The notes under the pieces: model-generated
Databases searched by the model: none
Told to the model about the DNA's origin: nothing
What the model saw: the letters and a program-made list of their open reading frames with translations, nothing else
Translations under genes and position numbers: made by a program
Source of the DNA: Thermococcus sp. CX2
Lineage (GTDB): Archaea; Methanobacteriota_B; Thermococci; Thermococcales; Thermococcaceae
Direction of reading: 5' to 3'
DNA length: 64,000 nucleotides
NCBI RefSeq assembly: GCF_012027555.1
Contig: NZ_SNUQ01000001.1
Span: 558,001 to 622,000, forward strand
Shown: in pieces, positions 5,376 through 52,601 of the stretch
Position numbering within the stretch: position 1 is the first letter of the stretch
How the letters are laid out: every line of letters begins with the position of its first letter

Positions 5376-5392
5376 AACCTATGGTTAATAAT
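5376..5392 (-). promoter_or_regulatory. SurR-like site (8/9) at the Ni/Co uptake operon
   Basis: AACn5GTTn3AAT, one base off the reverse complement of GTTn3AACn5GTT. It ends 18 bp before the TATA box TTTTATATA at 5411-5419 of the cbiM operon, the same spacing as the FmdE side of the perfect site at 23733. It is embedded in a larger dyad, CCAACC (5374-5379) and GGTTGG (5397-5402), which could instead be the operator of another regulator such as NikR. One-mismatch matches are expected by chance, so only the position supports it. Confidence 0.4.
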
Positions 5393-5471
5393 ACCGGGTT
5401 GGAGAAACACTTTTATATAGTGCTATCTTTTTTGACTTTGATAACACCCTCGGGTTAAGGAGGGAGATAAA

Positions 5472-6086
5472 TTGCACATACCAGACGGGCTGTTGAGCAC
5501 GCCGGTTATAATAGTGACTTACGCAATAACCATAGCGGGCGTTCTGTACTCAATTAAAAAGCTCAGGGACTTCCCGGAAGAGAAGATACCTCTCCTCGGC
5601 CTCTTTGCGGCTGGGATCTTCGCGGCCCAGATGGTCAACTTCCCGATAATCGGGGGAGTCAGTGGGCATCTGCTCGGAGCGACGCTCGTGGCCATACTGC
5701 TCGGCCCGTACGCGGCGGTAGTAGTCATGACTGCGGTGCTGCTCATCCAGACATTGCTCTTCGGCGACGGTGGAATAACGGCCATCGGGGCCAACATCCT
5801 CAACATGGGGCTTATCGGGGCGTTCGTTGGCTACGCCATCTACACCAGGCTGAAGAACATCAATGAGGCTTTCGCCATGGGCTTTGCCGCGTGGCTTTCG
5901 GTTGTCCTGGGGGCAACGATGACTGCTATCGAGATAGGCCTCAGCCAGAGCCTGCCCTTCGCCAAGGTTCTCACCCTGATGATAAGCTATCATGCTATAA
6001 TCGGCATCGGTGAGGCCATACTCACTATACTCATTGTCCAGGCCGTTAGGATGAAGCTTCCCGAGATAGAGGGGGTGACCGCATGA
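5472..6086 (+). CDS. cbiM: ECF transporter substrate-binding membrane protein CbiM/NikM
   Basis: A 204-aa protein with about six or seven membrane helices, the substrate-specific (S) component of an ECF-type Ni2+ or Co2+ importer. The family N-terminus MHIPDG is exact, and in this family the first residues, including His2, coordinate the metal, so the start must be the TTG at 5472. GGAGGGAG just upstream supports this. TATA is TTTTATATA at 5411-5419. Stop and start overlap with the next gene (ATGA). Nickel is the likelier substrate given the hydrogenase genes in the window. Confidence 0.9.
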   Translation: MHIPDGLLSTPVIIVTYAITIAGVLYSIKKLRDFPEEKIPLLGLFAAGIFAAQMVNFPIIGGVSGHLLGATLVAILLGPYAAVVVMTAVLLIQTLLFGDGGITAIGANILNMGLIGAFVGYAIYTRLKNINEAFAMGFAAWLSVVLGATMTAIEIGLSQSLPFAKVLTLMISYHAIIGIGEAILTILIVQAVRMKLPEIEGVTA

Positions 6087-19100: not shown

Positions 19101-20060
19101 ATGGAGGAAATTCTGAAGGCAATTGAGGAGAAGGACTGCAAAAAAGTGGCGAGCCTCCTCTACTACAAGGTGGACGGGCTGAGCGATGAGGAGCTCATGG
19201 AGATTCTTGAAAAAGCTGAAAAGCTCGCCCTTGAGTGTAAGGACCCCGAACTCTACAAGCTCATCGTTTACTACTTCCACGAGCTGCTCGGTGTGGATAA
19301 GATAAGCGAGTTCGAGAAGATGGCCGAGGAGGAGGACACCTTCGAAGCCAAATTCCAGCTTGCTGATCTCTACTACCTCCTCGGCGAGTTTGAGAAGAGC
19401 CTCGACCTCTACAGGGCTCTCCTGGAGGAAGAGACCGAGAAGGGCAACAAGGAGAACATAGCGAAGATTTACTACAACATGGCGCTCATCCACGAGGAGA
19501 TCCAGGAGTACGAAAAGGCCCTCGAACTCATGGAGAAGGCCGAGGAGATTTACAGAGAGCTCGGAAAGGAGGAAGAGGTGCTGCACATAGCGGTCTACAA
19601 GGCATACGTAACCTTCGAGATGGGTGAGCCTTACAAGGCCAAGGCCATGCTCGCTGGAGTCATCCCCAAAGCTATGGGCAACGATAAACTCCTGGCTGAG
19701 ATACACCTCTCCTACGAGGAGATATTCGAGGACGACGAGAACTACGATGCCGCCCTGCAGGAGTGCCTCTACGCCCTGATGAGGGCAAAGGGTACGGAGT
19801 ACTACGACGTGGCATTCGACGCGCTCATCGACGTCATCTGGCAGCTGATGCTCGAGGACGACTTCGAAACGGTTTATCTCCACATGGACATGTTCGCCAA
19901 CGCTCTGCCAGAGCTCAAGGAGTTCTTCGAAGGTGTTAAGGCCATAGCCCTCTACAAGGATGGCAGGGTTGACATGGAAGAGGCCAGAAAAGTCATCGAG
20001 AAAGTCAAAGACAGAAAGCTGCTTGACTTACTTGAATTCCTCGGAGAGGCCGAGATGTGA
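19101..20060 (+). CDS. TPR-repeat protein
   Basis: A 319-aa acidic, all-helical protein. At least three tetratricopeptide-like repeats are visible between residues 70 and 200 (for example KFQLADLYYLLGEFEKSLDLY, IYYNMALIHEEIQEYEKALELM, AVYKAYVTFEMGEPYKAKAML). Such proteins are scaffolds and the partner is unknown. TTAAATATG at about 19060-19068 is a plausible TATA. Its 3' end overlaps the 3' end of the convergent ABC ATPase gene by 33 bp. Confidence 0.85.
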   Translation: MEEILKAIEEKDCKKVASLLYYKVDGLSDEELMEILEKAEKLALECKDPELYKLIVYYFHELLGVDKISEFEKMAEEEDTFEAKFQLADLYYLLGEFEKSLDLYRALLEEETEKGNKENIAKIYYNMALIHEEIQEYEKALELMEKAEEIYRELGKEEEVLHIAVYKAYVTFEMGEPYKAKAMLAGVIPKAMGNDKLLAEIHLSYEEIFEDDENYDAALQECLYALMRAKGTEYYDVAFDALIDVIWQLMLEDDFETVYLHMDMFANALPELKEFFEGVKAIALYKDGRVDMEEARKVIEKVKDRKLLDLLEFLGEAEM

Positions 20061-20804
20061 GAGGGGAACGACCACTGGGATTCCCCTTATTTCTTCCACC
20101 TCAACTTTTACGCCGTAGACCTCTTCGAAGAGCTCTGGCTTGAGGATTTTCCTCCCGCCATCAGCGACTATTTCTCCATCCTTCATGAAAACAAACCTCT
20201 CGGCGAAGCGCAGGGCCAAGTTGACGTCGTGCATGACCACTATCGAAGTTCCTCCCGAGAGCGCGAAATCCCTGGCTATCTCCATGACCTCAAGCTGGCT
20301 CTTCAGGTCGAGGTTGTTGGTGGGCTCGTCCATCATGAGGATTCTCGGCTCCTGAGCTAACGCTCTCGCTATACTAACCTTCTGGAGCTCACCGCCGCTG
20401 AGCCTGTTGGTAGGCTTGAGGGCGAGGTGAGATATACCGAGCTTTTTGAGGGTTTTCATTACAATCTCAATGTCCCTTTTCGAAGGCCTCAACCCCATGT
20501 AGGGCCTCCTGCCGAGGAGAACCGTGTCGAAGACCGTCATGAAGCCGGGCTCACTCCTCTGGGGGACGTAGGCCAGAACCTTGGCCAGCTCGTTCCTCGA
20601 GTAGCTGCTAAGAGGCCTTTCCAGAACCTCAATTCCCTCACAGTGAAGGATTCCCGCGATGCATCTCAGGAGCGTGCTCTTTCCGGCGCCGTTCGGCCCG
20701 AGGATTGCTATGAACTCGCCCTCCTCGACCTCAAGGTCTATTCCCCTCAGCACCTCGGAGCCATTGTAGGTGAAGCGCAGGTTTCTGACTTTTACTGCCT
20801 TCAT
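20028..20804 (-). CDS. ABC transporter ATPase, iron/cobalamin/heme type
   Basis: A 258-aa FecE/BtuD-like ATPase: Walker A GPNGAGKST at about residues 36-44, Q-loop YVPQRSEPGF, signature LSGGELQK, Walker B ILMMDEPT and switch MHDVN. It powers the adjacent FecCD-type permease. It is the last gene of a four-gene operon that begins with an FmdE-like protein and overlaps the permease gene by 4 bp. Confidence 0.9.
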   Translation of the reverse strand: MKAVKVRNLRFTYNGSEVLRGIDLEVEEGEFIAILGPNGAGKSTLLRCIAGILHCEGIEVLERPLSSYSRNELAKVLAYVPQRSEPGFMTVFDTVLLGRRPYMGLRPSKRDIEIVMKTLKKLGISHLALKPTNRLSGGELQKVSIARALAQEPRILMMDEPTNNLDLKSQLEVMEIARDFALSGGTSIVVMHDVNLALRFAERFVFMKDGEIVADGGRKILKPELFEEVYGVKVEVEEIRGIPVVVPLSHLGLSEEFK

Positions 20805-21835
20805 CGCCGCCCCTCCATCCTTATGAGGAGGTATATGAATGTCGGCGCACCGAGGAAGGAGGTTACAACGCCAACGGGCAGGATCATCGGTGAGAAAGCC
20901 AGCCTCGCGACTGTATCCGCCGCGAGGAGGAGCAGAGCGCCGGTTAAAGCAGACAGCGGGATGAGAAAGCGATAATCACCCCCAACGATGAGCCTGATGG
21001 CATGGGGAGCTATTAAGCCGACGAAGCCTATTACTCCAACGAAGGCCACACTGACTGCCGTTATCAGCGCAGCCAAAAACGTCGAGATGAGCCTGACCCT
21101 CTCGACCTCAACCCCGACCGATTTGGCGACATCGTCTCCCATGGCCGAAGCACTCAGGTCCCACCTCTTGAGCACGAAGTAGGCAAAAACGGGAAGGAAG
21201 ATGGCAAACATTATTCCATCTTCCCTCCACGTCGCCCTGCCAAGGTCGCCGAAGCTCCAGTAGACCATTGCAGCCAGCTGCAGCTCGTCGGCGAAGTACT
21301 GGACGAGTGTCGTTAGGGCCACAAAGAGGGAGCTCATGGCCACTCCGGCGAGAATTATGGCCTCAGGACTGAGGCCTTTGAGTTTGGCTAGGGCAAGGAT
21401 AACCGCGGTAGCACTTATCGCCCCGAGAAAGGCGAAGATAACCACCGCGTAAGGGTTGTTGAGTGAAATCCTGCCCGAGCTTTCCGCATAGCCAGCACCG
21501 AGGAGTATCGCCAGAGAGGCGCCGAACATCGCCCCGTGAGAAACGCCCATCGTGAACGGAGTGGCTAGAGGGTTCCTGAGGAAGCCCTGCATGACCGCTC
21601 CGGCTATGGCAAGGGAAGCCCCCACGAGAAGTGCCGCGACAATCCTCGGCAGGCGGATGTTCCAGATGACGAGCTTAGAGCTCTCGCTCCCGTTACCGAG
21701 AAGGGCATCGATGACCTCCCGGACTGAGAGGCTGTAGGCTCCGTTTGCCAGAGAGTAGAGACTAACCAGGATGAGAAGGAAAAGAAGGGAGAAGCCTATG
21801 AGCCACCTCCTGGCAACGTAGCCCTCGTAGTCCAT
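20801..21835 (-). CDS. ABC transporter permease, FecCD type
   Basis: A 344-aa membrane protein of the FecCD/BtuC family with about ten helices. The family stretch WNIRLPRIVAALLVGASLAIAGAVMQG is near the N-terminus and GVIGFVGLIAPHAIRLIVG near residue 270 contains the coupling-helix region. The family imports iron-siderophores, heme or cobalamin. GTGATGGCC precedes the ATG at 21835; a GTG three codons upstream is possible and would overlap the binding-protein gene. Confidence 0.9.
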   Translation of the reverse strand: MDYEGYVARRWLIGFSLLFLLILVSLYSLANGAYSLSVREVIDALLGNGSESSKLVIWNIRLPRIVAALLVGASLAIAGAVMQGFLRNPLATPFTMGVSHGAMFGASLAILLGAGYAESSGRISLNNPYAVVIFAFLGAISATAVILALAKLKGLSPEAIILAGVAMSSLFVALTTLVQYFADELQLAAMVYWSFGDLGRATWREDGIMFAIFLPVFAYFVLKRWDLSASAMGDDVAKSVGVEVERVRLISTFLAALITAVSVAFVGVIGFVGLIAPHAIRLIVGGDYRFLIPLSALTGALLLLAADTVARLAFSPMILPVGVVTSFLGAPTFIYLLIRMEGRR

Positions 21836-21840
21836 GGCCA

Positions 21841-22974
21841 TCACGGTGAAGTAGGCAGTGAGTACTTAACGGTTCCGTTGGCGAGGTCGATCTTTCCAAA
21901 GCCGCCGAACTGCTCGGCCATCTCCTTATAGACGGGCTTTCCGACGAGGAAGGTGTATATCTCGTCGGCCTTCTCGGCGGGGTCTATGTCTTCAAAGCGG
22001 TCCGGATAGAGAACCGTGCCGATGAAGTAGGCATCCGCTAAAGCGGTTCCGATGTTGGTAGTGTAGAAGTTGTACGGAAGGATTCCGTAAACGTTGCCCT
22101 CCTTAACGGCCTTGAGCGAGTTGTAGAAGTCTGGGTCCTTGCTGTAGTCGTCAAGAACGAGCTTTAAGCCACCTTCGTCGATGAAGATGTAGTCGGGGTT
22201 CCACTCCAGGAGCTTCTCCTTGTCGATGAACTTGTGACCCTCGCCGAGCTCATCGGCAACGTTCTTTGCGTGGAGAACCACGAAGGGCGGATAATCAGCC
22301 TCGGTGCTCTCTATGCCGTGGGCTCCCTTGTAGCCTATTCCCCCAACGTAAACAGCCGGGCTTTCAACGTTCTCAGTGCGCTTCGTGAGGTCGTCCTGAA
22401 TGCCCTTGATGAAGTTGATGACCTCCTTGGCGCGCTCCTCCTTTCCGAGTATCTTTCCAGCAAGCTCGAGAGACCTGAAGAGCTCCTCGTCCTCGAAGGT
22501 AGCTAATTGGCCATAGCTGAGGACAACGACTGGAATGCCGGTCTTCTCCTGAATATCGTCGGCGGTCTTGGCATCGACGTAGGTGATGAATATCACGTCA
22601 GGCTTGAGCTTAACCAGTGCTTCCAAATCGGGAAGCTTTCCTGGGCCACCCGGCCCTATGGTGGGCAGCTCCTTGAGCTCGGGATGGGCGATTATGTAGG
22701 GCCTGCCGTAGTTATAGCGCTTCTCGAAGTCCTCCACGCCCACCACCATGTCGCTCGCGTTGAGATAGACGATGAGCCTGAGTGCACCCGGCCCAGCGGC
22801 GACGATGCTTTCAACTTTTTCTGGAACTTTGACTTCCCTTCCGAGCATGTCAGTGACCGTTACATACGCCGGAGTTTGAGTTGAGCTCTGAGTCGGGCTT
22901 TGGCTTGTGTTGCCTATACACCCGCTTATTGGAACGAGGAGCAGTATCAAGAGAAAAGCAAGAACCCTCCTCAT
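21841..22974 (-). CDS. ABC transporter substrate-binding lipoprotein, iron/cobalamin type
   Basis: A 377-aa extracellular binding protein with a signal peptide and lipobox ending at Cys19 (PISGC), then a Ser/Thr/Gln/Pro-rich linker typical of archaeal lipoproteins. The domain is the cluster A BtuF/FhuD type: [59 protein letters not shown]. The ligand is not evident. The operon is headed by an FmdE-like gene and a perfect SurR site, which points to a metal or cofactor needed for hydrogenase or Fe-S metabolism rather than to a known siderophore. Confidence 0.9.
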
Positions 22975-22975
22975 C

Positions 22976-23677
22976 TCAGCACCCCCTCATATAGTCGTTG
23001 GCTTCCACTATACCCCTACCTATGAGCGCGTGGTATCTCTCACCAGCACAGCGGAGGCAGAAGGGCTCGTCGTTAATGTAGACCACCCTCGTCGCCATAA
23101 CCAGTTCCCCGCAGCGGGAGCAGCGAACGCTCTCGAAGATGGGGGCCTGCTCAACAGGCGGAACCTTAACGCGCTCGATTTTGAACTCCTCCCTCGGGAG
23201 GTGGAGCATGGTTTTTGCCATCTCCTCCCACAGCTCCCAAAGGCGCTCCCTTTCCTCCTCAGTCCCCCTCCGCTCCTTGACAACCTTGTTAAAGAGCTCG
23301 GTCGCCTCTGGGGGGTAGTACTTCCTCAGCCTTTCGGCGTCTGCGTAAACCCTGACTCCCTCCCATGTGGAGCGCTTGACCAGTGTTAGGGCCGTTTTGC
23401 CGAGGTCGAGGTATACCAGGGAGTTGTTCCCGAGGGTGCAGCCCGTTGTAACCTGAACGCCATCTGTGAAGCAGCTGTTGACCTCGACTATGGCCAAGAC
23501 GGACTCATCGACACTGCTGGAGTAGTCAAGCCTGCCAACGCCGAGCTCTTCCATGGCTATCAACGATGCCCTTATTCCAAGGGCCAAATAGGGGCAGACG
23601 TGACCGTGAAATTCCCTTGCGATTTCGAGGATTCCCTCCGCGTTGCGCTCCTCCACGAGGCGGTTGAGCGCGAGCAT
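22976..23677 (-). CDS. FmdE-like protein with C-terminal zinc ribbon
   Basis: A 233-aa cytoplasmic protein. The FmdE domain opens with [25 protein letters not shown] (residues about 18-42) and continues with [24 protein letters not shown], both containing metal-ligand candidates. The last 50 residues form a treble-clef/zinc ribbon (CSRCG, CLRCAGE). The FmdE name comes from tungsten formylmethanofuran dehydrogenase operons of methanogens, but the biochemical role is not established. It starts the ABC-transporter operon (2 bp before the lipoprotein gene). The ATG at 23677 has GGTGAT upstream. TATA is TTAAAAA on the minus strand (23708-23714). Confidence 0.85.
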
Positions 23678-23732
23678 GGTATCACCGAGCTCCAATACAG
23701 TAACACATTTTTAATCCTTTTTGAATCTTGGT

Positions 23733-23749
23733 GTTATCAACCTTTGGTT
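23733..23749 (+). promoter_or_regulatory. Perfect SurR consensus site between FmdE-ABC and NifX-like genes
   Basis: GTT-ATC-AAC-CTTTG-GTT, a perfect GTTn3AACn5GTT. It ends 8 bp before the NifX-like TATA (TTTTTAAT, 23758-23765) and begins 18 bp upstream of the FmdE TATA on the other strand. It could therefore control both divergent transcripts, and the positions predict activation when SurR is reduced (no elemental sulfur). Confidence 0.8.
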
Positions 23750-23796: not shown

Positions 23797-24171
23797 ATGA
23801 GGATAGCTGTACCCATCAAGGACGATAGCGGCCTCGAAAGCGAGGTCTGCGAGCATTTCGGAAAGGCCAGATACTTCGTCTTCGTTGATCTTGAGGATGG
23901 AGAGATCAAGGGCTCTGAGGTCGTTCAGGTGCCCTTCGAGGAGCACAGCCCTGGAGACCTGCCAGAGTTCATCAAACAACACGGGGGAGAGATGGTTCTC
24001 GCTTACGGCATGGGTAGACGGGCCATCGCATACTTCAACGCCATGGGGGTTCAGGTAATCACTGGTGTGAGCGGAAAAGTTAGAGATGTTCTCGAAGGGC
24101 TCGCCAAGGGCACGCTGAAGGCCGACCCCGACTGGAGAAGCAAAGGAGACTTTGGAAGACACGAGTTCTGA
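23797..24171 (+). CDS. NifX/NifB-type dinitrogenase FeMo-cofactor-like domain protein
   Basis: A 124-aa protein of the NifX/NafY superfamily: MRIAVPIKDD, SEVCEHFGKARYFVFVDLEDGEI and MVLAYGMGRRAIAYFNAMGVQVITG are the family core. Homologs bind or carry Fe-S or metal clusters; many archaea without nitrogenase have them, and the role is unsettled. GGTGAT upstream selects the ATG at 23797; the open frame extends 23 codons further but overlaps the TATA box. It is divergent from the FmdE-ABC operon and shares a perfect SurR site with it. Confidence 0.88.
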   Translation: MRIAVPIKDDSGLESEVCEHFGKARYFVFVDLEDGEIKGSEVVQVPFEEHSPGDLPEFIKQHGGEMVLAYGMGRRAIAYFNAMGVQVITGVSGKVRDVLEGLAKGTLKADPDWRSKGDFGRHEF

Positions 24172-24181
24172 ACCTTCTGTT
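24165..24181 (+). promoter_or_regulatory. Perfect SurR consensus site upstream of the TDT transporter
   Basis: GTT-CTG-AAC-CTTCT-GTT, a perfect GTTn3AACn5GTT that spans the stop codon of the NifX-like gene. It ends 9 bp before the TATA box TTTTTATAT (24191-24199) of the downstream transporter, so activation by reduced SurR is predicted. Confidence 0.75.
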
Positions 24182-24230
24182 TTGGCAAGGTTTTTATATG
24201 AAATTTTTTTCATTTGTTTTGGTGATATGT

Positions 24231-25235
24231 GTGAAGCTGAACGTGAAGGATTTTGCTCCAAGCTGGTTCGCCAGTGTTATGGGCACCGGAGCGTTAGCTT
24301 TGGTGAGCAAAGCGTACTCCTCAAAGCTTTCAGCCCTGGGGAGCTTCGCAGAGTTACTCGTTTATCTGAACACCGGGCTCTTCCTCGTCCTGCTCGTCCC
24401 ATGGGTTCTCCGCTGGGTTAAATACCGCGAGAACGCGCTTGCGGATTTACACCATCCCATCCTCTGCAACTTCTACGGGACGATAGCAATAGCGATGCTC
24501 GTGCTCTCGGCCGATTACCTGACTGTCTTCGGGAACACGAAGGTAGCGTGGCTCTTTTGGCTTGCTGGGACTCCACTAACGGTGTTCTTTGCCCTGCTGA
24601 TTCCCTACATGGTCTTCACGGGCGACGGAGTTGATACAGAGGCCATAACACCGGCCTGGTTCATTCCGCCGGTGGGGCTGATAGTAATCCCGATAAGCGG
24701 GGCAAAGCTTATGACTCTGACCAGCGGGGCTGCTAGAGAGCTAATGACCTTTATCAACTACTTTGCTTGGGGCTCGGGCTTCTTCCTGTATCTAGCCCTG
24801 TTTGCGATAGTCATGTACAGACTTATAACCCACGAGCCCATGCCCTGCGGCATAGCGCCGTCGATATGGATAAACCTCGGTCCAATTGGCGCCGGAACCT
24901 CAACGCTCTACGCCCTCATCAAAGCCTCGGACTTCGTAACGGCCAAGGAAGCCTTTCTGACCTTTGGACTGCTCTTCTGGGGCTTCGGCGTCTGGTGGTT
25001 CATCATGGCCGTCTTGCTGACCATCCACTACATCAGAAAGCTCAATCTGCCCTATAGTTTAGCCTGGTGGGCCTTCATATTCCCCCTTGGTGCCTACGTG
25101 AGCGCCACATACAACGTGGGGACGACCTTTGGAATAGGCGCCATCACGGACTTCGGCTTCGCCATCTACTGGCTCCTCCTGGCCATGTGGACTGTAACGG
25201 GGGTCAGAACCCTTGGGCACGTGCTCTCCGAGTGA
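24231..25235 (+). CDS. TDT-family transporter (TehA/Mae1/SLAC1 type)
   Basis: A 334-aa protein with ten membrane helices of the tellurite-resistance/dicarboxylate transporter family. APSWFASVMGTGALA at the start and PSIWINLGPIGAGTSTLYAL near residue 225 are the conserved pore stretches. Family members move malate, anions or (SSU1) sulfite, and the substrate here is unknown. The GTG at 24231 is chosen because GGTGAT lies just before it and the TATA box TTTTTATAT (24191-24199) would otherwise fall at or within the first codons. A perfect SurR site precedes the TATA, so a sulfur-related or anion role is worth considering. Confidence 0.85.
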   Translation: MKLNVKDFAPSWFASVMGTGALALVSKAYSSKLSALGSFAELLVYLNTGLFLVLLVPWVLRWVKYRENALADLHHPILCNFYGTIAIAMLVLSADYLTVFGNTKVAWLFWLAGTPLTVFFALLIPYMVFTGDGVDTEAITPAWFIPPVGLIVIPISGAKLMTLTSGAARELMTFINYFAWGSGFFLYLALFAIVMYRLITHEPMPCGIAPSIWINLGPIGAGTSTLYALIKASDFVTAKEAFLTFGLLFWGFGVWWFIMAVLLTIHYIRKLNLPYSLAWWAFIFPLGAYVSATYNVGTTFGIGAITDFGFAIYWLLLAMWTVTGVRTLGHVLSE

Positions 25236-26557: not shown

Positions 26558-26574
26558 AACATAACGTTGGAAAC
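26558..26574 (-). promoter_or_regulatory. Perfect SurR consensus site upstream of hypA
   Basis: AAC-ATAAC-GTT-GGA-AAC, the exact reverse complement form of GTTn3AACn5GTT. It ends 7 bp before the hypA TATA box (TTTTTAAG, 26582-26589), predicting activation of the hypA-hypB-hycI operon in the absence of sulfur. Longer flanking dyads (TTCCAA at 26537 and TTGGAA at 26567) overlap it. Confidence 0.8.
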
Positions 26575-26619: not shown

Positions 26620-27039
26620 ATGCACGAGTGGGCTCTGGCTGATGGAATAGTTAGGACCGCCCTCGACTACGCCCAAAGGGAGGGCGCAAAAAAGCTTCTG
26701 GCAATCCAGGTAGTCCTCGGAGAGCTCCAGGATGTCAACGCCGAGATAGTCGAGTTTGCCATGAGGGAACTCCTCAAGGGCACCATAGGAGAAGGAGCCG
26801 AGATAGAGTTCATCGAGGAAGAGGCAGTCTTCAGGTGCAGGAGCTGCGGCCACGAGTGGAAGCTCAAGGAAGTCAGGGACAGATTTGACGAACGCATAAA
26901 AGAGGACATACACTTCATTCCAGAGGTTGTTCACGCCTTTTTAGCGTGTCCGAAGTGCGGTAGCCACGATTTCGAAGTCATCCAGGGCAGGGGAGTTTAC
27001 ATAAGCGGGATAAAAATCGAGAAGGAGGGAGAGGCATGA
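26620..27039 (+). CDS. hypA: Hydrogenase nickel-insertion protein HypA
   Basis: A 139-aa nickel metallochaperone. The N-terminal MHEWALADGIV holds the Ni ligand His2, and the zinc domain has CRSCG and CPKCG with a long insert between the two pairs, as in Thermococcus kodakarensis HypA. It hands Ni2+ to hydrogenase large subunits together with the ATPase encoded next. It overlaps that gene by 4 bp. GGTGATACC precedes the ATG; TATA and a perfect SurR site lie upstream. Confidence 0.96.
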   Translation: MHEWALADGIVRTALDYAQREGAKKLLAIQVVLGELQDVNAEIVEFAMRELLKGTIGEGAEIEFIEEEAVFRCRSCGHEWKLKEVRDRFDERIKEDIHFIPEVVHAFLACPKCGSHDFEVIQGRGVYISGIKIEKEGEA

Positions 27040-51823: not shown

Positions 51824-52552
51824 TCATCCGCTTATTTTCATCCACAGCTCCTCCACCTGCGAAACAGGTCTGATCTCCCTGCCTTCAAGGCTTTCTATGA
51901 TAAAGCGCTGGTCATAGGGTATAACGACATCGGGTTTAACGGGGAGCTTGTCCTCTATGCCAGGCAGGGCCTTGTTGAGAACCAGGACGTGCTTGAGACC
52001 GAGGCTCCCGGCCAGACCCTCAATCTTCTTTGACAGTTCGAGAGACTCGGCCGAAGGCTCGGCAACGTCTACGATGACGTCAACGTACCTGTCAATACCC
52101 CTTCCAAAGTGCTCTATTCCAGCCTCAGTATCAACGATGAGTACCTCGTTGTCATCCAGATTTATACCCTCAAGGAGCTTTCTGGCAAGGAAGCCGTAGG
52201 GACAGGCACAGCCCTCTTCTGCTTCCTCTATCTTACCTATGGTCAGAACGGCGAGGTTGCCCTTCCTTGCGAGTATTTCCCCCGGAATGTCATCAAGGGT
52301 CCAGTTGAAGAGCTCCTCGTCGAGCTCTCCCTTACCCTCCGCCGCCATGAGAATCTTTGCTCCCCGTCTGCCACCCAGATGCTCAGCCAGAGTCTTAACC
52401 TTCGGCAATCCAAGCATCCTGTAGAGACCCGGGTTAGATTCATCGGCGTCGATTATCAGGACCCTGTAGCCCTTATCCTCCAAGTATTTACCGAGCATGG
52501 CCGTTATGGTGCTCTTCCCACAGCCACCTTTACCGCTGACGAGAATCTTCAT
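51824..52552 (-). CDS. CooC-type nickel-cofactor maturation ATPase
   Basis: A 242-aa MinD/ArsA-fold ATPase close to CooC, which loads nickel into carbon monoxide dehydrogenase. Deviant P-loop SGKGGCGKS is at residues 6-14. EEGCACPYGFLARKLL provides the cysteine pair that binds metal at the dimer interface, and VDTEAGIEHFGRG is diagnostic. GGTGATACGA precedes the ATG at 52552. No CODH gene is in the window, so its client lies elsewhere or it serves another metalloenzyme. Confidence 0.85.
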   Translation of the reverse strand: MKILVSGKGGCGKSTITAMLGKYLEDKGYRVLIIDADESNPGLYRMLGLPKVKTLAEHLGGRRGAKILMAAEGKGELDEELFNWTLDDIPGEILARKGNLAVLTIGKIEEAEEGCACPYGFLARKLLEGINLDDNEVLIVDTEAGIEHFGRGIDRYVDVIVDVAEPSAESLELSKKIEGLAGSLGLKHVLVLNKALPGIEDKLPVKPDVVIPYDQRFIIESLEGREIRPVSQVEELWMKISG

Positions 52553-52601
52553 TCGTATCACCAAACGCAAAAAAAGTAACACAATTTAAAAGGTCTTTGG
52601 T

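Follow-up and report, generated by a model that had tools for sequence, protein, structure and literature searches.

A conserved FmdE-FecBCD operon with SurR and NikR-like promoter elements is a candidate nickel importer in Thermococcaceae

Background

All Thermococcales need nickel for their hydrogenases, and known nickel/cobalt importers were present in only half of those surveyed in 2009 (Zhang 2009, PMC2667541): the four Thermococcales of that survey all have a NiFe hydrogenase, Nik/CbiMNQO was assigned in only two of them and no other Ni/Co importer was found in the four. The 64,000-nucleotide stretch of the 1.8-Mb Thermococcus sp. CX2 genome analysed here (the window, C1:558001-622000) is a hydrogenase island carrying hypA, an Mrp-type ATPase gene that we read as encoding the archaeal HypB, hycI, a formate-hydrogenlyase/Mrp cluster, hypD, hypF and hypE. 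It also contains a divergent promoter with a SurR site, leading on one side to a transporter operon headed by an FmdE-family gene and on the other to a NifX-like gene. What does this operon import, and under which conditions is it switched on? The original prediction tied the FmdE-like protein, a FecBCD-type importer and the NifX-like protein to sulfur control, as a module supplying a metal or cofactor for hydrogenase or Fe-S synthesis.

Results

An exact SurR site is conserved at FmdE promoters

The SurR site GTTATCAACCTTTGGTT lies at 23733-23749 on the forward strand and matches GTTn3AACn5GTT without a mismatch. It is upstream of both TATA boxes, 8 bp from that on the NifX side and about 17-18 bp from that of the FmdE operon, a TATA-like box (ATTAAAAA, 23708-23715, minus strand) whose position is kept across the listing of FmdE promoters. 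Both the exact motif and the predicted TATA distances were borne out when the sequence was scanned again.

The window holds five exact SurR motifs against 0.31 expected from dinucleotide shuffles, none of which reached five, and genome-wide the motif occurs 39 times compared to 22 for a reversed control pattern. Motif scanning places further exact sites before hypA (26558-26574, minus strand), before hypF (46640) and before the gene of an NSR-like oxidoreductase (60361), in keeping with the published link of SurR to hydrogen and sulfur metabolism (PMC12162507). The same genome has a gene for SurR itself (match to P. furiosus SurR PF0095, PDB 2qlz, E 3e-93), and this gene adjoins a PDO-like gene and an exact SurR site.

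The original prediction implied that the site should be conserved at orthologous promoters, and this was found: of the 58 orthologous promoters, which are non-independent samples, 40 have an exact motif no more than 110 bp from the FmdE start, whereas 300 shuffling runs on these promoters produced 0.2 on average and never more than 2. None of the 57 far-upstream control segments contains the exact motif. In related Thermococcaceae the motif usually lies 55-63 bp before the FmdE start, it is frequently part of a long site readable on both strands, and many promoters of the substrate-binding lipoprotein (SBP) that lack FmdE retain a SurR-like site. Taken together, conservation over five genera, neighbourhood and promoter architecture support a predicted SurR control of the FmdE-transporter operon.

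The operon encodes a FecBCD-type importer

The four genes are all on the minus strand. The first encodes an FmdE-family protein (PF02663) with a C-terminal C4 zinc-ribbon domain (22976-23677, start ATG at 23677), in which H24, H26, C28, C69, C80 and the four ribbon cysteines are conserved. It is followed by the SBP (PF01497, 21841-22974; closest solved chain T. maritima 2etv), with conserved H97 and H219, by a FecCD-type permease (PF01032, FecD, 20801-21844) that is nearest to BtuC models, and by a FecE-type ABC ATPase (20028-20804). A Peripla_BP_2 lipoprotein, a FecCD permease and an ABC ATPase in a single operon identify a FecBCD-type ABC importer.

FmdE orthologues were found in 57 of the 94 genomes of the family, followed by SBP, FecD and FecE in nearly all, and MobA is a frequent neighbour of these loci. 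The SurR-FmdE system is not universal, since one close relative has a degenerate SurR site together with an in-frame TAG in FmdE (G029:C1:1291880-1292557); this suggests a decaying locus, and the genome concerned also has CbiM/NikM. Some genomes have a further gene, TrmO/TsaA-like by eye, that adjoins FmdE or replaces it before SBP. Outside Thermococcaceae, five loci in Archaeoglobales, Bathyarchaeota and Thermoplasmatota MAGs have the gene of a CooC-like ATPase within the operon of SBP, FecD and FecE, and other loci combine SBP-FecD-FecE with FmdE.

A NikR-like box lies next to the FmdE start codon

The listing of FmdE promoters revealed a second constant element, GTGnTAC-N14-GTGATAC, whose end is close beside the start codon. 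In the window it reads GTGTTAC-N14-GTGATAC (23679-23706, minus strand) and is located between the TATA-like box and the FmdE start codon. The NikR consensus predicted for delta-proteobacteria is GTGTTAC-N13/14-GTAACAC (PMC545781), and it is to this delta-proteobacterial operator that the FmdE box was compared; it matches only in the degenerate form GTRNYAC-N14-GTRNYAC and is otherwise direct-repeat-like, with halves GTGnTAC and GTGATAC where the delta-proteobacterial operator is a clean inverted repeat. No description of a NikR-like box at the FmdE promoter was found in the literature searched, Rodionov 2006 lying outside its scope.

Across 1.06 Mb of fetched loci the degenerate form has 53 matches and none in shuffles; 39 of them are directly before FmdE, and others are before SBP or HypA. 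Genome-wide, the box is no more frequent than its reversed pattern, so the argument rests on location and not on number, and we discarded box counts alone as proof. Because the right half of the FmdE box overlaps the GGTGAT ribosome-binding site, the left half-site was scored separately. Among starts with GGTGAT, it is present at 49 of 67 FmdE, SBP or HypA starts compared to 0 of 119 others, which rules out that the box is an artefact of the ribosome-binding site. NikR itself is available in most of these organisms, with a gene in 91 of the 94 genomes including that of CX2 (match to P. horikoshii NikR, E 2e-70).

Nickel genes share the promoter elements

Only three boxes of the form GTRNYAC-N14-GTRNYAC were found in the CX2 genome: at FmdE, at a CooC-like ATPase and at a second FecB-type lipoprotein. 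The CooC-like box (52555-52582, minus strand) lies directly before the gene of a predicted nickel-insertion ATPase (51824-52552, minus strand) that matches CooC1 (3kje, E 4e-19) along almost the entire protein, CXC motif included, which places it in the CooC family. In several genomes a NikR-like box precedes this gene and orthologues of hypA, the nickel metallochaperone gene (26620-27039, forward strand, in the window). The second FecB-type lipoprotein/permease/ATPase operon (G000:C3:8000-17000; L088:1617-4608) carries two overlapping SurR sites in addition to its NikR-like box.

CbiM/NikM, a component of the ECF nickel/cobalt transporter, is encoded in the window at 5472-6086 on the forward strand. 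Its promoter (5380-5471, forward strand) has a SurR-like site with one mismatch, a TATA-like box and the box GTGCTAT-N14-ATAACAC. The same order of SurR-like site, TATA-like box and NikR-like box was found in all 21 CbiM/NikM promoters examined, that of the window included, with spacing similar to the FmdE promoter; most of these boxes have one or two mismatches to GTRNYAC-N14-GTRNYAC. This likeness, a comparison of promoter sequences, is the strongest cross-check of the nickel reading.

The importer and CbiM/NikM have complementary distributions

In 74 well-sequenced genomes, 39 have both SBP and CbiM/NikM, 20 SBP only, 14 CbiM/NikM only and one, a draft, neither (one-sided p 0.03 for complementarity, not corrected for descent). 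HypF has a match in all 94 genomes. T. gammatolerans has no complete CbiMNQO (PMC3407056) and has the SBP operon. NiCoT (PF03824) is absent from the CX2 genome and is thus ruled out as a hidden importer there.

Discussion

A probable nickel importer with two proposed inputs

We hypothesize that FmdE-SBP-FecD-FecE (23677 to 20028) is probably an importer of nickel or a nickel chelate under an AND gate of SurR and NikR. The metal-supply role first predicted for hydrogenase stands on conservation, neighbourhood and promoter architecture, and it is the NikR-like operator, missed at that time, that points further to nickel as the metal. Most likely the importer would be a FecBCD-type system that can stand in for the ECF transporter NikMNQO and that feeds [NiFe]-hydrogenase maturation.

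Judging from the position of the site and the known behaviour of SurR, reduced SurR would bind upstream of BRE/TATA when there is no elemental sulfur and activate transcription. When nickel is plentiful, Ni-NikR would bind GTGnTAC-N14-GTGATAC between TATA and start and block transcription. The lipoprotein would capture nickel for import by FecD and FecE, and FmdE, with its conserved histidines and cysteines, may receive the metal for HypA/CooC. Such an AND gate would confine nickel import to hydrogen production under nickel shortage. More tentatively, as an idea to which we give slightly less than even weight, the two inputs may form a nickel uptake code common to both importers, which are unrelated, and FmdE may be a new nickel-handling protein of the cytosol that connects the FecBCD system with HypA and CooC.

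Several known systems come close. Analogous to the proposed importer, H. pylori NiuBDE is a FecBCD-type ABC importer with a separate binding protein; it carries nickel and supplies the NiFe hydrogenase (PMC5140060), a role that we only infer for the present, archaeal operon; NiuBDE has no FmdE partner and no known SurR. NikMNQO/CbiMNQO shares with the FmdE operon the promoter of SurR site, TATA and NikR-like box in Thermococcaceae as well as a complementary distribution, but is built differently, as an unrelated ECF-type system that has no binding lipoprotein. As in the Thermococcales SurR regulon (Lipscomb 2009, 2017, as cited in PMC12162507), the exact site lies upstream of TATA, an activating position, whereas the FmdE operon adds a second, nickel-type operator; the SurR literature searched, to which the Lipscomb originals did not belong, gave no mention of the operon. 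The delta-proteobacterial NikR regulon (PMC545781) likewise has 7-bp half-sites, a 13/14-bp spacer and nickel transporter genes downstream, while here the box lies in an archaeal promoter between TATA and start.

The operon is a concrete candidate for the missing nickel importer, open to experimental test, and belongs to hosts used for biohydrogen. If the proposal is true, Pyrococcus and many Thermococcus species would gain that importer, nickel supply would be tied to the sulfur/hydrogen switch at a single promoter, and the poorly understood FmdE family would have a function to test.

Alternative cargoes and contrary data

It is conceivable that the operon instead imports iron, as a Fe(III)-chelate, siderophore or heme, and is induced while H2 is made, to serve the assembly of Fe-S clusters and hydrogenase. 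The family annotation of SBP, FecD and FecE agrees with this, and annotation and papers label such genes Fe(III) transporters. By RT-qPCR in T. gammatolerans, tg0819, which is FecE of the orthologous operon by gene counting from tg0841, tg0849 and tg0857, rose 9.5-fold at 250 uM Ni, 30-fold with Zn and 14-fold with Cd, a response the authors interpret as iron stress (PMC3407056). The rise under nickel is contrary to nickel repression, which predicts a fall. It may reflect a general metal-stress response, since hydrogenase genes were up in the same treatments (PMC3407056); no exact SurR site was found at the T. gammatolerans operon. Against iron, CbiM/NikM, hypA and the CooC-like gene all share the NikR-like box, a CooC-like gene accompanies the operon in other archaea, and iron uptake, feoB for example, is reported to go up with sulfur and not in its absence (PMC6981617). 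The iron transporter tags named in that sulfur transcriptome of Pa. pacificus do not match the estimated position of the operon. On balance we consider an iron importer unlikely.

About equally unlikely, in our estimate, is that a hydrogenase-linked regulator other than NikR acts at the box and that the cargo is cobalt, a corrinoid, tungsten/molybdenum or the like. The FmdE family name, the frequent MobA neighbour and the likeness of the permease to BtuC models speak for it, and NiuBDE also moves cobalt (PMC5140060). However, the box agrees with the published NikR consensus in both form and spacing (PMC545781), the genes that carry the box are nickel genes (HypA, CooC-like, CbiM/NikM), and MobA may merely reflect a place in the formate hydrogenlyase island.

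T. maritima relies on [FeFe] hydrogenase, and the binding lipoprotein is closely related to its protein 2etv, which is a caution against a nickel role. In the T. onnurineus proteome HypE, HypF and HycI are reported down on sulfur, and the main text has no mention of the FmdE operon (PMC4463584).

The NifX-like gene accompanies only some FmdE loci

That the SurR site chiefly serves the divergent NifX-like gene, with the FmdE operon a bystander, is very improbable: 8 bp separate the site from the NifX-side TATA, but it is kept 55-63 bp before FmdE, or before SBP where there is no FmdE, in many genomes without a NifX-like neighbour. The NifX-like gene (PF02579, 23797-24171, forward strand, start ATG at 23797) lies downstream of the SurR site and is the divergent neighbour in about 15 of the 57 fetched FmdE loci, and no NikR-like box was found on its side of the promoter; both rule it out as a core partner in general. 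Of the three-way tie first proposed, the link between FmdE and FecBCD therefore holds as a conserved operon and that to the NifX-like gene is weak, the latter being, by gene order and promoter content, an occasional neighbour and no core partner.

Another exact SurR motif (24165-24181) overlaps the end of the NifX-like gene and precedes a TDT/SLAC1-family transporter gene (24198-25235). In T. gammatolerans, gene counting places tg0841, an ArsR-type regulator gene reported as 39-fold nickel-induced, immediately ahead of the genes for the NifX-like protein and the TDT transporter (789796-791680, L096-L099).
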